Shown here in pieces: positions 17,101 to 23,593 of a DNA stretch of 64,000 nt (the first letter of the stretch is position 1; each line of letters begins with the position of its first letter). The notes below the pieces were generated by a model. It saw only the letters and a list, made by a program, of their open reading frames with translations, made no database searches and was not told the origin of the DNA. Position numbers and translations under genes: made by a program. This stretch comes from Diacronema lutheri (lineage: Eukaryota > Haptophyta > Pavlovophyceae > Pavlovales > Pavlovaceae): the NCBI GenBank assembly GCA_019448385.1, contig JAGTXO010000028.1, forward strand, positions 310,001-374,000, read 5' to 3'.

Positions 17101-17304
17101 CAGAGTTTTGAGCAGCACGCCCGCGCCGCCGACGCGCGCGAGGAACGCCACCACGAGCTGCTTGTCGCCATGCACTACGCGCGGGGCGCGCGCGGCAGCG
17201 GCAGAAGCGACGCGCGCGCGCGTAAGCAAGGCGGGCGAGCGCGCGCGCGGCCAATCCAGCACACGGACCGACGATTTGGCATGCGTCCGCCATTCCTGGG
17301 CCAC
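14021..17304 (-). CDS. JmjC-domain protein related to KDM2/KDM7 histone lysine demethylases
   Basis: Four exons (17304-15988, 15848-15776, 15516-14901, 14711-14021) join in phase to about 898 residues. The JmjC core in exon 3 has SMSFHLDLWATAVFYHIL, GGKVFALAPPTERNIELLQRW and FSILIPAGWIHAVFTPADS. It keeps the HxD...H iron ligands and the lysine and tyrosine positions around the 2OG site. The phrase 'PPTERN...RW, IPAGWIHAV-TP-DS' is typical of the KDM2/KDM7/PHF8 branch, which removes H3K9/K27/K36 methyl groups. No PHD or CXXC finger is visible. The N-terminal 440 residues hold an unassigned globular region (DKQLVVAFLARVGG, WKLGRKQACVLSFCHYLARH) and a basic low-complexity stretch. The C-terminal exon is helical. 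The exact start is uncertain. Confidence 0.8.
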
Positions 17305-17347
17305 GAAGGCGTTTCAGAGTCGGAACTCGGAACCTCGGTGGGGGACT

Positions 17348-17414
<67 letters not shown>
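17348..17414. repeat. Poly-G tract (67 G)
   Basis: A pure run of 67 G followed by GGGGA units, in the 167-bp space between the start codons of the divergent JmjC and kinesin-like genes. The exact length is prone to sequencing error. Confidence 0.9.
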
Positions 17415-17415
<1 letters not shown>

Positions 17416-17471
17416 GGGGAGGGGAGGGGACTCCGGGGAGGAGGTTTCTGGGAAATCGGCCTCCGGCGCCG

Positions 17472-18802
17472 ATGGCGAGCCGCCCGCGCTTCCGCGCGAT
17501 TGCGCGCGTGCAGCCGGTGGAGGAGACGGACGAAGACGCTGAGGAAGGAATCGCCGTGGAATGCAGGCGTGACGGCGACACCGTCGTCGTCGCCGAGCTC
17601 GGCGCAGGCGGGCAGAAGACGGAGGCGTTTGAGTTTGACCACGTGTTCGGCACAGAGTCGACGTACCGCGACATCCACTCGCAGGAGCTGCGCTTCGTGG
17701 TGGAGGGCGCGCTGCGCGGACGCAACTCGACGCTCTTCGTTTCGGGCACCTCCACGTGCGGCAAGCGCCACATGGTCTTTGGCCAGCCCTTCCTCACCGC
17801 GGCCGAGGGCGGGATCTCGGGCCTCGCCGAGCGGATCGTGGGCGACATTTACATGCGCGACTCGCGCGAGGAGTGGGTGCTGTCCGTCTCACTCTATTCG
17901 ATCTACCGCGAGGAGATCTTTGATCTGCTTGCGCCCACCGCCTCAATGCGCCCGCTCACCATCGTCGACAGCACGACCGGCGGCGTCGCGATCTCATCGT
18001 TGTCGGACGTGTCGATCTCGAACACGTCCGAGCTGCTCGCCGTCCTCCGCCAGTCGATCTACGCGCGCGAGGCGCTGGAGGAGGAGACGTCCGGGCGGGA
18101 CGCGGAGTCAACGCTCGTCCTCGTCATCTCGATGACCTGCGTCGTCAGCCCCGACTCGGCCAAGGTACACCTCGTCGACCTGGCTGGCTCCGACCTCGGC
18201 GGCAGCCCGTCCGCCGCGCTCGGCCGCGCGTTCTCGCGGCTCGCGGCGGGCCGCGGCGGCGGCGGCGGCGAGAGCGCGGTGGCGGACTACGCGGCGTCCA
18301 AGCTGATGGTGCTCATGAGGGACTACCTCGAGGAGGCCTCGTCCGTCGCCGTCCTCGCCGTCGTTTCGCCGATCGCCGCGTCGATGGCCGGTCTGAAAGA
18401 CGGGCTGCGCCTGGCGGGCAAGGCGCACGACGGCCTCAAGCAGCTCGCGCGCGCGCCGCCCGACGCGGAAGCGAGCAAAGCGGCGGCAGCCGCCGGCGCG
18501 GCGGCGATGGAGGCGGCCGCCGCCGCCGCGCGCGAGGAGGCAGTCAAAGCGGGCGCAGCTCTCAACTCGATGTTCTCAGACCAGGCGGCGCACGGGCCAG
18601 GCAATGTGTCGTCGCGCCAGTTTGGCGGGCGCGCGCTCAGGGCGGACGAGCGGCGGCACGCGACGCTGCCGAGCGAGCAGCCGATCGCGCCCGCCGCGCC
18701 GCCCAACGGCCACACCCACGAGCACGCCGGCGTTGTGCACGCCGAGCGGCCGCGCACCGCGCGCCCGCCCTCGCTCGAGCGTCTCGGCGACGATCTACTC
18801 GC

Positions 18803-18859
<57 letters not shown>

Positions 18860-20864
18860 AAGCGGCGGCGGAGGCGGAGGCGGTGGCGGCGGCGCGGACG
18901 GCGGCGCGAGCGAGGGCCTCGTGCCGTGCGAGAAGTGCGGGCGCAAGTTCGCCGCCGGGCGCATCGACAAGCACCAGGCCGTGTGCAAGGGCCCGGCCAA
19001 GTCGCCGCGTTCGTCGCCGTCGCGCGCCGCGTCCGGCGCTGCGGCGGTCGGCGCGGACGCGGCGGCCGGAGGCGGCGGCGGCACGGACGCGGCGGCGGAG
19101 GTGGACGCGACGCGCGCGATGGCGGCCAAACCGCGCATCCGCAAGGCCGATGCGCTCGAGCCGTGCCCAAAGTGCGGCCGCACGTTTGCGCCCGACCGCA
19201 TCGACAAGCACGCCTCCGTCTGCAAGGGCGAATCGACGGCGCGACGACCATCCACGTCAGCGGGCAGCGGCGCCGGCGGTGCTGGCGGCGGCGCCGGTGC
19301 ACCGCTCGCGATCGTGGCGGCATCAGCGGCCGCGCTCGACGGCCGTGGCTTTGGCGCGCTCGGCGTCGACTACAAGGACCCGAACGCCCCCGAGCCGTCG
19401 CCCAAGCCGCGCGCCAAGAGCCGCGCGCAAGCGCTCGACGTCGACGACGACGAATTCGCCGGCGGCGGCAGCGCGGCGACTCGCCGCGGCAAGTCGCCAC
19501 GCGCGCGCACTCCAGGCCGCTCGCCGCGCCGCGGCTCGTCCAGCTCGCGCGGCGGCGGTGCCGAGCCTCCCGCCGAGCTGCAGTACAGAGGCAAGCCGGG
19601 TGAGCTGCAGACGATTTTGGAGGATGTCTTCACGGGCGATGGCGTCGGCACGGGCACGCAGCTCGACGACGAGTCAATCGCCATCTACTCGAAGCTGCCG
19701 CTGTGCGGCGACGAGTCCACCGCGCGTCGCCCCGCCGCGGCGATCACCGTCGCCGCCGAGATGAAGGCGTCCGTCGACGACTCGTTCTCGATCCCGGCGG
19801 TCGTGCGCAGCCATGACCCTCGCGTGCTCGGCCTGCGCATCTCGCACTCGGCGGAGTCGCGGCGCTCGCACGAGATCCTCAACGGGCCGGACGAGATGGT
19901 GGCGATCCTCACGCTCATCAACGACTCGTACACCGACGAGTCCTTCTGGGACAAGAAGAAGCAGGGCGGGATGAACAACCCGGTCGTGGCGATGATCCAC
20001 AACACACTCGTCCGCATCCGCCGGTTCCACCGCATGCTCGAGGACACGCAGATGGTCGAGTTCGCCGATGCGGTGATCGAGGCGATGCTACGGATGTACG
20101 TCTTCTGCACCACCGTGATGACGCGCTCAGGCCGCTCCGCTCTGTACAACCAAGCGGTCAAGCACGTGGGCGAGTTCTACTGCTACAAGTTCGTCTCGCC
20201 GCCCATCATGCAGGCAGCCAACCTCGGCAAGCGCGGCGGCGCGGGCACGGCGAACGCGACGTTGCGCGAGGGCATCGCCGCGCTCTTCGCGCTGCTCATC
20301 AAGGGCGAGCTCAACGACGCGAGCCGCGCCGCGCTGCGCGAGTCACTCCGCTGCGTCGCGGTCTCGTGGGCGCCGCCCCTCCTCCTCTCCGAGGTCGCAC
20401 TCGACGCGATGACCGAGAACCTGAAGAACCGCGACGCATTCGCGATGCGCACGCGCGAGATGGGGCTGACGATCGTCTTCATGGTCCTCTCGCGCTACAC
20501 GTACAGCGCCATCAAAAAGTTCTTCGATGCGCCCGACCGGCCGACGGGCATGCCGTCCAAGCTGCACACCCTCTGCGCGTGCATGGGGATGGCTCGCGCC
20601 GAGGCGTCCAAGTCGCCGCTCAACAAGGCGCTCACGATCGAGATCGCGTCGCTCCTCAAGGCGCACGTCGGCGAGGTGCGGCTGCGCGAGTCCTTCGAGG
20701 GCGCCGACATGGACCGTGGAGTCGCCGCCGAGATCTTCAAGGCGCCGATGACCAACCTTGACGTCTCCTCGCTCAAGGCGCCCGTCGGCAGCGTGTCAGG
20801 GCGCACGCCGCGCGTGCCATCCAAGTCACCGCGCCGGCCGCGCGCAAACTCGAGGACGCGCTGA
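17472..20864 (+). CDS. Degenerate kinesin-motor protein with two C2HC zinc fingers
   Basis: Single 1,130-residue frame. Residues 1-330 follow a kinesin motor: FEFDHVFGTESTYRDIHS, GTSTCGKRHMVFG at the P-loop, SLYSIYREEIFDLLAP, and HLVDLAGSDLGG (switch II) with ASKLMVLMRDYL after it. The P-loop threonine is arginine, and the usual N-x-x-SSRSH switch I is not recognisable, so ATPase activity is doubtful. A poly-Gly tract precedes two C2HC fingers, VPCEKCGRKFAAGRIDKH (about 486-512) and EPCPKCGRTFAPDRIDKH (about 563-588), the ZC2HC type seen in many flagellar proteins. Residues about 776-1090 form a helical domain I cannot name (GPDEMVAILTLINDSY, FYCYKFVSPPIMQAANLG). The C-terminus is basic and serine-rich. 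Confidence 0.78.
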
Positions 20865-21016
20865 TCGCGCGCGTGCATGGCCGCCCGCCACAGCGCGTGC
20901 GCAGTGCTGCGCAGTTGCCGTTGGCCGGCGGTCGCGCGTCGGCCGTTGCGTCGGTCGCCTGCGCCGCCATGACGCTTCAGTCATCAGCTTGATACGCCGT
21001 CCTCGCGGGGTTCATC

Positions 21017-21080
21017 GCAGCGTTCCGTCCGCCGCGGGCCAGGCAGCTGCGCTGCTTTGAAGCCCACGGCATCATGCTGC
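21017..21080 (-). promoter_or_regulatory. Candidate type II SECIS element of the left msrA copy
   Basis: Exact mirror of the element at 22260-22323, lying downstream of the stop of the left msrA gene. It has the same ATGA/GA core, AAA loop and capping mini-stem. Confidence 0.68.
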
Positions 21081-21109
21081 TACAAGAGCCCGAGGGTGCG
21101 AGCGACGCG

Positions 21110-21627
21110 TCAGCGCAGGCATGCCGCGCCCGAGTTCTTGAAATTGTAATCCTGGTGGTGCTCCTCTGCGTCATGCCACTCCATCGCGGGCGCGAGCTCG
21201 ACGATGCCCTCGAGCCCGCGCTCGGCGAGCGCCGTCCGTGCGGCCGCCTCCTGGGCCGCATCGTCGAACCAGATCGCTGATGCGTACTGGCGGCGCGCCT
21301 TGCGCACGTGCCGCTCCGCGGTGAATACGGCGAGGAGCTGCACATACGAAACTACCGCTGGGTCGTACTCCACGCGCACCGCCTCCACGTGCCCGTCGCC
21401 CTGCAGCAGCGTGACGCGCGCACGCGTCAGAAGGCGTGCGGCGCACCGCGCACACCGCGCGCGCCGGACGCACTCACTCGACACACTGTGGAATAGGTGG
21501 GCGCGGAACTGCGGCCACCCGTGTAGCCGACACGCGTTCGAAGCACGCCCGACAGGCGGCGGGCGGAGAAGAGCTCCTCCACGCCCCAAAATCACCCCAT
21601 GGCGAACAGCGCGGTCTTGCGCGCCAT
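21110..21627 (-). CDS. msrA: Methionine sulfoxide reductase A, putative selenoprotein (left palindrome copy)
   Basis: Mirror copy of the gene at 21713-22230, with exons 21627-21478 and 21400-21110. The in-frame TGA at the catalytic position is at 21594-21592. The coding sequence appears identical to the other copy. Its candidate SECIS is at 21080-21017. If the palindrome is real, both copies share an 85-bp divergent start region (21628-21712); if it is an assembly artefact, this copy may not exist. Confidence 0.75.
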
Positions 21628-21712
21628 GTTGACGAGTCGTAAAAAGGCTTTTGCCCGGTCAATCGTCAGAGCTAGAGCGCGCGCGGCGCGCGCAAGGTTA
21701 CGACTCGTCAAC

Positions 21713-22230
21713 ATGGCGCGCAAGACCGCGCTGTTCGCCATGGGGTGATTTTGGGGCGTGGAGGAGCTCTTCTCCGCCCGCCGCCTGTCGGGCGTGCTTC
21801 GAACGCGTGTCGGCTACACGGGTGGCCGCAGTTCCGCGCCCACCTATTCCACAGTGTGTCGAGTGAGTGCGTCCGGCGCGCGCGGTGTGCGCGGTGCGCC
21901 GCACGCCTTCTGACGCGTGCGCGCGTCACGCTGCTGCAGGGCGACGGGCACGTGGAGGCGGTGCGCGTGGAGTACGACCCAGCGGTAGTTTCGTATGTGC
22001 AGCTCCTCGCCGTATTCACCGCGGAGCGGCACGTGCGCAAGGCGCGCCGCCAGTACGCATCAGCGATCTGGTTCGACGATGCGGCCCAGGAGGCGGCCGC
22101 ACGGACGGCGCTCGCCGAGCGCGGGCTCGAGGGCATCGTCGAGCTCGCGCCCGCGATGGAGTGGCATGACGCAGAGGAGCACCACCAGGATTACAATTTC
22201 AAGAACTCGGGCGCGGCATGCCTGCGCTGA
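21713..22230 (+). CDS. msrA: Methionine sulfoxide reductase A with in-frame TGA (selenocysteine) at the catalytic site
   Basis: Exon 1 is 21713-21862 and exon 2 is 21940-22230 (77-bp intron, GTGAGT...CAG, phase 0). Read through the TGA at 21746-21748, the product is 146 residues: [11 protein letters not shown], Sec12, [80 protein letters not shown]. MsrA reduces methionine-S-sulfoxide in proteins using the nucleophile in GCFWG. Here the Cys codon of that motif is TGA, while every flanking family residue is conserved on both sides, so this is not a gene end. Selenocysteine MsrA is known from Chlamydomonas and some other organisms. No signal peptide is seen, so it is probably cytosolic. A candidate SECIS lies 30 bp after the stop. 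Confidence 0.88.
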
Positions 22231-22259
22231 CGCGTCGCTCGCACCCTCGGGCTCTTGTA

Positions 22260-22323
22260 GCAGCATGATGCCGTGGGCTTCAAAGCAGCGCAGCTGCCTG
22301 GCCCGCGGCGGACGGAACGCTGC
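22260..22323 (+). promoter_or_regulatory. Candidate type II SECIS element of the right msrA copy
   Basis: Helix I is GCAGC (22260-22264) with GCTGC (22319-22323). The core is ATGA (22265-22268) opposite GA (22311-22312). Helix II is ten pairs, 22269-22278 with 22301-22310, including two G-U. The AAA at 22282-22284 is 13 nt after ATGA, and an extra mini-stem GCAGC/GCTGC (22285-22289, 22293-22297) caps the apical loop. This is the layout of a type II eukaryotic SECIS, folded by hand. Confidence 0.78.
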
Positions 22324-22511
22324 GATGAACCCCGCGAGGACGGCGTATCAAGCTGATGACTGAAGCGTCATGGCGGCGCAATCGTCTGCTTTGACGATTG
22401 ACAGCTTTTGCCCGGCCGGCGCCCGCCTGCGGGCGGCCAAACGGACGTCGCGCTCGCTGCTGCAAATAGAGCTCGGAACCATCGAGCCACCTTGCGCGCG
22501 CCGCGCGCGCT

Positions 22512-23593
22512 CTAGCTCTCGAAGAAAATCTGGTTGATGAGAAGCGTCGCGCCGAGGAGCTGCGCGCCCTGCTCCCACGACTTCTGCGGGATGCGGTTCA
22601 GGTCGTACATGTACCGGTTGGTCGACGTCATTCCGATCGTCTCCTTAAAGTCGCGCATCGCCTCGTCAGCGGCCGCCTTGGCCTTCTTGTCCAGGTCGCC
22701 GAGGTTGAGGCGGCCTGAGTCGTAGATCGGGCGCACGTCCGGGCCGCGGAAGCGGAACGTGTCGTCGTCGGTGGCGAGCTCGGCGAAGAAGTTCTTCCAC
22801 AGCTTGTTGATGTCACCGCTCGGCTTGTCGCTGCCCGGCAGGTAGACTTTGAAAGGGATGCGGCAGCAGCACGACGCACTCCGGTCGCAGCAGTTGACGC
22901 ACAGGCCGCAGCAGCACGTCGGCTGGTGCACATCGAAGACGTCGGCGCCCGTCGCGTCCTTGACGGTGAAGAGCGGCACGCACAGCCAGCACTGCTCCAC
23001 CACCGTGCCGACCTCCACCTGGTTCTGCACGTCGGTGATCGACACGTACTGCGAGCAGCAGCACTTGCACGGCATCACGGGCAGGCGGCACGGGTGCTGG
23101 ATGAGGAGCACGTCCTTCGCGTCGGCCGCCGTGGTCGTCGCGCCATAGAAGACGCGCGTCGTCCAGTAGTACGAGTTGGCGCAGCAGCTGCGGCCGCGCA
23201 GGGCGCCGGAGCACGCGCGCGTGCGCGGCGTCAGGCGGCGGCGCGCGGCGCGCGCGCGCGCATCTGCGCTCGCTCGGCGCGCGCGCTCGGGCGACCGCGA
23301 CGGCGCGGCGCGCACAAGCGCGTGAGCGAGCCTCGCTGCTCCTGCCCGTAGTACATGTCCGAGCTGCCGTCGATCGACGAGCCAATCTTGAACGTCTCAC
23401 TCGCCGGGCACGCGCAGCAGCCGTCGCACTGCCCACGCTTCGTCTGCTTGATGTACCACTCGTTCGAGAGGCCAAAGACGCGGATCATCTCCTTCGGCGC
23501 GACGTTCTGCATCTCCAATGAGTCCGAGCGCGGCGCCTTGTTGAGCCGGTCGAGACCGAACTCGGGGTTGGTGCTCCCGGCGCAGTTGCCCAT
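22512..23593 (-). CDS. Phospholipid scramblase-like, dual-acylated cysteine-rich protein
   Basis: Exons 23593-23316 and 23187-22512 (donor GTGCGC, acceptor CCGCAG) join in phase to about 317 residues. The start MGNCAG suits N-myristoylation at Gly2 and palmitoylation at Cys4. The body has cysteine clusters typical of scramblase/tubby-like proteins (CCCSQYVSITDVQNQ, CWLCVPLFTVKDATG, DVFDVHQPTCCCGLCVNCC, CCCRIPFKVYLPG) and a hydrophobic C-terminal stretch (LLGATLLINQIFFES). A role at the inner face of a membrane is likely; lipid transport activity is not shown for this branch. Its stop codon region is partly copied into the loop of the adjacent palindrome. Confidence 0.7.

Follow-up and report, generated by a model that had tools for sequence, protein, structure and literature searches.

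A probable selenocysteine-containing MsrA gene and its perfect mirror copy in the haptophyte Diacronema lutheri

Known selenoprotein MsrA enzymes and the gene at this locus

Selenocysteine (Sec)-containing MsrA of algae is already in print, and one haptophyte, Emiliania huxleyi, has it at least in the form of a GST-MSRA fusion (PMC7539508). In the available portions of that work, MSRA and SELENOU are the families found most often in algal selenoprotein gene clusters, while the clusters built from members of a single family are those of SELENOW, SELENOU and PRX, and not of MSRA. Among bacteria, the MsrA of Clostridium oremlandii is a natural selenoprotein (PMC4479559, as far as its available text goes), described in the accessible part of PMC4333827 as a 1-Cys enzyme that requires a helical domain at its C-terminus. 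Judging by the titles listed, none of the literature on selenocysteine or selenoproteins in Pavlova evidently concerns D. lutheri, and the main text of the D. lutheri genome paper, in the form available, contains no word starting with 'selen' (PMC8379373). The gene described here resembles the algal Sec-MSRA genes of PMC7539508 in being an MsrA selenoprotein gene, and differs from what the available text of that paper describes in that its two copies lie in a perfect inverted repeat. The statement of the first-pass annotation that Sec-MsrA is known in some algae is thus borne out by the algal selenoproteomes, and what is less ordinary here is the exact mirror pair, the absence of an aspartate equivalent to E. 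coli Asp129, and an array of nine tandem tRNA-Sec genes elsewhere in the genome. We consider it highly probable (roughly 0.92) that the locus encodes a Sec-MsrA whose in-frame UGA is read as Sec, and that its second copy arose by a recent template-switch inverted duplication.

The window (the whole stretch of 64,000 nucleotides analysed, contig C3 310001-374000) has a GC content of 0.67-0.81 in 2-kb steps. In the right-hand copy of the gene, exon 1 (21713-21862, plus strand, 50 codons) opens with an ATG at 21713, passes through an in-frame TGA at 21746-21748, and continues through FWGVEELF and VGYTGG to TVCR, where a phase-0 GT-AG intron of 77 nt (21863-21939, GTGAGT...CTGCAG), predicted from the frame, leads to exon 2 (21940-22230, with a TGA stop at 22228-22230). 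Splicing restores a PMSR domain: the predicted protein of 146 residues, in which X stands for the TGA codon, matches Pfam PF01625 at E 2.1e-32 (112.9 bits, cut-off 23.7) over profile positions 1-152 of 153, and scores 97.2 bits against the stricter NCBIfam TIGR00401, below its cut-off of 108.1. Thirty distinct sequences of solved structures match it at E <=0.001, the best being E. coli MsrA (1ff3, E 1.4e-25), and in this alignment the TGA falls at Cys51. The first-pass annotation had placed the TGA at the catalytic Cys codon and had run the frame on through VGYTGG and a phase-0 intron, and both claims are confirmed. The annotation described a single gene, however; that gene stands as described, but an exact mirror copy of it had been missed, so that there are two.

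As a member of the PMSR family, the window MsrA has the nucleophile position within GxFWG (as a TGA codon) and equivalents of Tyr82, Glu94 and Tyr134, the catalytic residues whose roles are given for the N. meningitidis MsrA in the available part of PMC6210582, and it also has equivalents of E. coli Tyr189 and Cys198. It differs from the E. coli enzyme in having TGA for Cys51, in a deletion of the stretch around Asp129, and in having one residue fewer before Glu94. With the C. oremlandii enzyme, to which we attribute chain 4w8c from its 144 residues and Cys16, it shares both the Sec position and the missing Asp of the GNDxGxQY motif; unlike that enzyme, it ends soon after its C-terminal Cys and has no helical domain. 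In a putative Sec-MsrA of this kind, Sec would be the nucleophile attacking methionine sulfoxide, and resolution would probably fall to the Cys of KNSGAAC close to the C-terminus, the counterpart of E. coli Cys198 in the alignment. Also on the plus strand of the window, at 17226-20864, a long open frame encodes a kinesin motor (PF00225), a Microtub_bd domain (PF16796) and two C2HC zinc fingers (PF13913); the tail of the frame appears RasGAP-like by eye only, Pfam giving no match.

Selenocysteine decoding in the genome

The genome searched comprises 43,492,796 bases in 103 contigs, and the search for Sec machinery and other selenoproteins that the first-pass annotation had proposed recovered tRNA-Sec (nine of 10 matches above cut-off), SepSecS (contig C48, E 1.5e-47), eEFSec and SelD, so that the genome is not one lacking the Sec insertion machinery, the case that the annotation had named as contrary to its reading. 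The eEFSec candidate (contig C33:432054) scores below the cut-off for bacterial selB in a single exon-wise match and matches 5izk, listed as a selenocysteine-specific elongation factor, at E 5.7e-136 over 508 residues. SelD is found on contig C9 in two pieces, one above cut-off, and PSTK-like sequence gave one match (2.9e-11), below cut-off. The SelD reading frame (L051/L050, contig C9:1759247-1760130) is apparently fused behind another open-frame part, which we take to be an NADH-dehydrogenase-like oxidoreductase. Nine other genes carry a single TGA at a redox motif, namely two GPx, three Rdx, three Sep15/SelM and one further MsrA on contig C6; TGA was found in two of four GPx loci (five matches), and in three of four matches for each of Rdx and Sep15/SelM. 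Since both the machinery genes and single TGA codons at redox motifs are present, use of selenocysteine by D. lutheri is well supported at the level of sequence.

The tRNA-Sec genes are themselves unusual in arrangement. On the minus strand of contig C19, at 159090-160638 (locus L029, C19:154001-164000), nine copies follow one another head to tail at intervals of 181-184 nt; seven are identical, two have one change in the anticodon stem, and a truncated tenth follows. Variable columns number one of 88 in the tRNA bodies and 18 of 90 in the spacers, a difference which argues that the array is under selection and is not an assembly stutter. In the available text of PMC5330540, the diatom Fragilariopsis cylindrus has eleven non-identical tRNA-Sec predictions. 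D. lutheri is similar in having many near-identical tRNA-Sec genes with differing flanks, but has its nine genes in a head-to-tail array, whereas the word 'tandem' does not occur in the available main text of the F. cylindrus paper. Within the window itself ARAGORN found no tRNA.

Eukaryotic SECIS elements follow the coding region and share a consensus of a non-standard quartet, a helix II above it and an apical AA. A SECIS-like hairpin of type II lies at 22249-22332 on the plus strand, after the right MsrA copy, and was recognised by descriptor and by folding; the descriptor also finds it after the left copy (21008-21091, minus strand), where it is identical by mirror. TGA at 22266-22268 stands opposite GA at 22311-22312, with an 11-pair helix II above, AAA, and a 5-pair apical helix III. 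The minimum-energy fold of 22248-22336, from a program that cannot model the non-standard quartet pairs, has -44.5 kcal/mol (z -2.32, with four of 200 shuffles equally good), and shows a basal helix and AAA on the 5' side of the apical loop. The descriptor is our own and was written after sight of this hairpin. Applied to both strands of the window (128,000 bases), it matches at two positions, one behind each MsrA copy and none elsewhere; in seven other loci (87,000 bases, both strands) it matches twice, after the C6 MsrA and in a GAAATTT-type repeat of L029; and it has no match in the 120,000 bases that the two strands of six background stretches make up. Across 15 gene loci it matches downstream of two of nine other TGA genes (L003, already known, and L062) and after one of six loci without TGA (L061, a Sep15/SelM exon), and in about 1.5 kb of flank of each locus it has no match upstream or on the opposite strand. 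With no background match, and with matches at two of nine TGA genes and one of six others, the descriptor is fairly specific but insensitive.

These data bear on whether the MsrA TGA could instead be a normal termination codon, a sequencing error or a codon reassigned in general, which we regard as very improbable. In its favour, the Rfam SECIS model misses the hairpin: no Rfam family reaches gathering score in the window, no SECIS is reported near the MsrA gene up to E 10, and RF00031 has no match in the whole genome. Against it, TGA occupies the same catalytic codon in the second MsrA locus (contig C6:969516-969923) and in two of 80 prokaryotic relatives examined, which makes a chance TGA very unlikely; nine other genes have TGA at a redox motif; and the Sec machinery is present. 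General reassignment is further opposed by the window MsrA and its kinesin-like neighbour both terminating with TGA, which argues that the codon is not reassigned throughout. The selenocysteine reading of the MsrA TGA, which the first-pass annotation had proposed, is on this evidence well supported by the hairpin, the Sec machinery and the other single-TGA genes, although Sec insertion itself is deduced. The in-frame UGA would be decoded as Sec by tRNA-Sec and eEFSec, guided by the hairpin 3' of the coding region. In the spliced transcript the distance to the SECIS core is 441 nt from the Sec UGA and 36 nt from the terminal TGA. Against the least UGA-SECIS distance of at least 51-111 nt given in the available part of a review (PMC8659212), the two TGAs of one gene would be read differently, and the terminal UGA, lying so close to the hairpin core, would serve as stop.

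The inverted repeat and its borders

The MsrA gene and its 3' region are mirrored exactly, and the feature is therefore two genes rather than one. The right arm of the inverted repeat (21698-22380, plus strand) and the left arm (20960-21642, minus strand) are perfect reverse complements, identical at 683 of 683 nt including the intron and the 3' region. The second Sec-MsrA (minus strand, 21627-21110) accordingly has its own intron and SECIS-like hairpin; by mirror coordinates its exon 1 is at 21478-21627, with the putative Sec TGA at 21594-21592, and its exon 2 at 21110-21400, and PMSR is matched on both strands. Both arms end 15 nt upstream of the ATG. They are separated by a spacer of 55 nt (21643-21697) made up of a 25-nt sequence S and most of a 31-nt repeat R (21668-21698, plus strand), the last base of which is the first of the right arm. 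R is the exact reverse complement of 22489-22519, where on the minus strand its native form comprises the last bases, the stop codon and the following bases of a neighbouring scramblase gene (PF03803, E 8e-13). A segment X (22381-22488), which separates the right arm from the scramblase end, is proposed from its position to be part of the original MsrA promoter. An 8-nt direct repeat, CAATCGTC, occurs on the plus strand at both borders of the presumed insert, one instance (21660-21667) lying at the junction of S and R and the other (22379-22386) at that of the right arm and X.

Taken as an insert, the stretch between the two CAATCGTC copies is identical to the left arm and the scramblase end, joined without the intervening part and reverse-complemented. 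Removal of this insert leaves an empty site of tandem genes, in the order MsrA (minus), S, X, scramblase (minus). S and X share matching blocks of 12 and 9 nt, which none of 5000 random 25-mers from the window equalled (two had a 12-nt match). The inverted copy, the 8-nt border repeat and the displaced 31-nt scramblase piece, all of which would be expected of template switching, are each present, and the borders fit a recent inverted duplication by template switch during repair. In this proposed mechanism the reverse complement of MsrA, led by 31 nt of the scramblase end, would have been inserted at CAATCGTC; in this presumed order of events the left copy would be the original. The age of the duplication can be read only as 0 differences in 683. 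A genome search with 20960-22530 found only the MsrA locus and the 31-nt repeat. A role of this repeat as the end of a transposon was rejected, there being no genome copy beyond the two in a search that skips very common words. Nor are CAATCGTC and GCTTTTGCCCGG clearly enriched as general motifs of the window, with four occurrences against 1.44 expected (six of 100 shuffles reach four) and, at up to two mismatches, 13 against 9.16 (14 of 100 shuffles reach 13).

Artefacts are known to include fold-back chimeras. The true locus could accordingly hold one Sec-MsrA and the inverted repeat be a product of assembly or library construction, in which case the Sec reading would stand. The identity of the arms over 683 nt speaks for such an origin, as does the MsrA pair being the sole perfect one among 21 inverted repeats of at least 80 nt reported in the window, the other 20 being 71-84% complementary. 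The assembly, however, according to the available text of PMC8379373, derives from size-selected PacBio reads with about 315-fold modal coverage and a subread N50 of 23.458 kb, polished with Illumina data, and a palindrome of 1.4 kb is easily spanned by such reads. The spacer moreover contains the displaced scramblase piece and other bases, which would not be expected from a simple fold-back. We therefore hold an artefact to be improbable, and a genuine duplication remains the preferred reading. Elsewhere in the genome, nested inverted repeats of 89-207 nt and 95-99% complementarity, unlike the MsrA palindrome, were observed at contig C9:400376-401262 (L036:376-1262); they account for all four pairs of at least 80 nt in six sampled 10-kb stretches, a sample too small for a genome rate.

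The geometry of a genuine duplication has possible consequences for expression. The insert separates the left MsrA from most of the presumed promoter X and leaves the right MsrA without native upstream sequence, so that either copy may be poorly expressed. The outcome would be transcription of both genes from the short spacer, a weakened expression, or a hairpin RNA made from X. In the last case X, pointing left, would transcribe the right copy antisense and the left copy sense, and the order of X, right arm, spacer and left arm is as this requires; the resulting 683-bp hairpin RNA would be untranslatable or would silence MsrA. That the pair is silenced or dead in this way is, in our judgement, unlikely. 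No Piwi/Argonaute domain (PF02171) was found in the genome by an intron-free six-frame search, which could miss a gene of small exons, and classical RNAi is on this basis unlikely; D. lutheri may lack it. Frame, intron borders and SECIS are intact in both copies, although with zero divergence there has been little time for decay, and X is only a presumed promoter.

Absence of Asp129 from Sec forms of MsrA

Asp129 of E. coli MsrA, which belongs to the QGNDxGxQY motif, has no counterpart in either D. lutheri Sec-MsrA form. Of the Cys paralogues in the same genome, those on contigs C44 and C67 have the Asp and the divergent one on C85 does not, and an MsrA match on C27 has no recognisable active site. 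Prokaryotic relatives were examined as 80 of at least 518, picked by likeness to the window MsrA, which is a bias. The catalytic codon encodes Cys in 78 of them and is TGA in two, L121 from a Rokubacteria MAG and L123 from an unclassified MAG. The Asp is present in 77 of the 78 Cys forms (76 by pattern and L072 by eye; L105 has Asn) and in neither TGA form as read by eye, the pattern having mis-hit L121. These two have instead a short loop, GDHTE and GGHTE, and their MsrA match runs from 1001. Chain 4w8c likewise lacks the Asp, and the active site of C. oremlandii MsrA as described in the available part of PMC4333827 lists none. In total the Asp is present in 79 of 81 Cys forms and in none of five Sec forms (Fisher p 6e-7, for rows that are related and Sec forms that may be one lineage). 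Absence of Asp129 is no bar to membership of the MsrA family, since the C. oremlandii enzyme is active without it. No role for Asp129 was found in the accessible parts of the MsrA literature searched, and no literature was found joining selenocysteine, MsrA and Rokubacteria. Among viral sequences, 142 IMG/VR stretches matched a pattern, none of them a relative, and 21 of 50,697 phage records contained an MsrA-like match.

The phylogeny is consistent with either shared or separate origins of the Sec forms. The C6 MsrA groups with the two prokaryotic Sec rows at 94/76, and the window MsrA falls elsewhere at 80/30, on a tree with long branches. Holding the four Sec rows as one clade was not rejected (p-AU 0.561), its log-likelihood being 5.56 above that of the free tree. 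It is possible that a Sec nucleophile makes the Asp129 stretch dispensable, that this stretch was lost in the haptophyte (in two paralogues) and in bacteria by descent or convergence, and that the recent head-to-head doubling of Sec-MsrA and the nine tandem tRNA-Sec genes point to strong demand for Sec; we put this combined proposal forward tentatively, as rather less than an even chance.

The locus is of a kind that an ordinary gene caller would truncate, and its mirror copy could pass for an artefact; as a pair, the two genes offer a clean candidate case of template-switch inverted duplication. The gene adds a likely member of the Pavlovales to the lineages with Sec-MsrA, and the correlation with Asp129 makes it testable which part of the Cys-MsrA active site serves the thiol and would be needless with a selenol.
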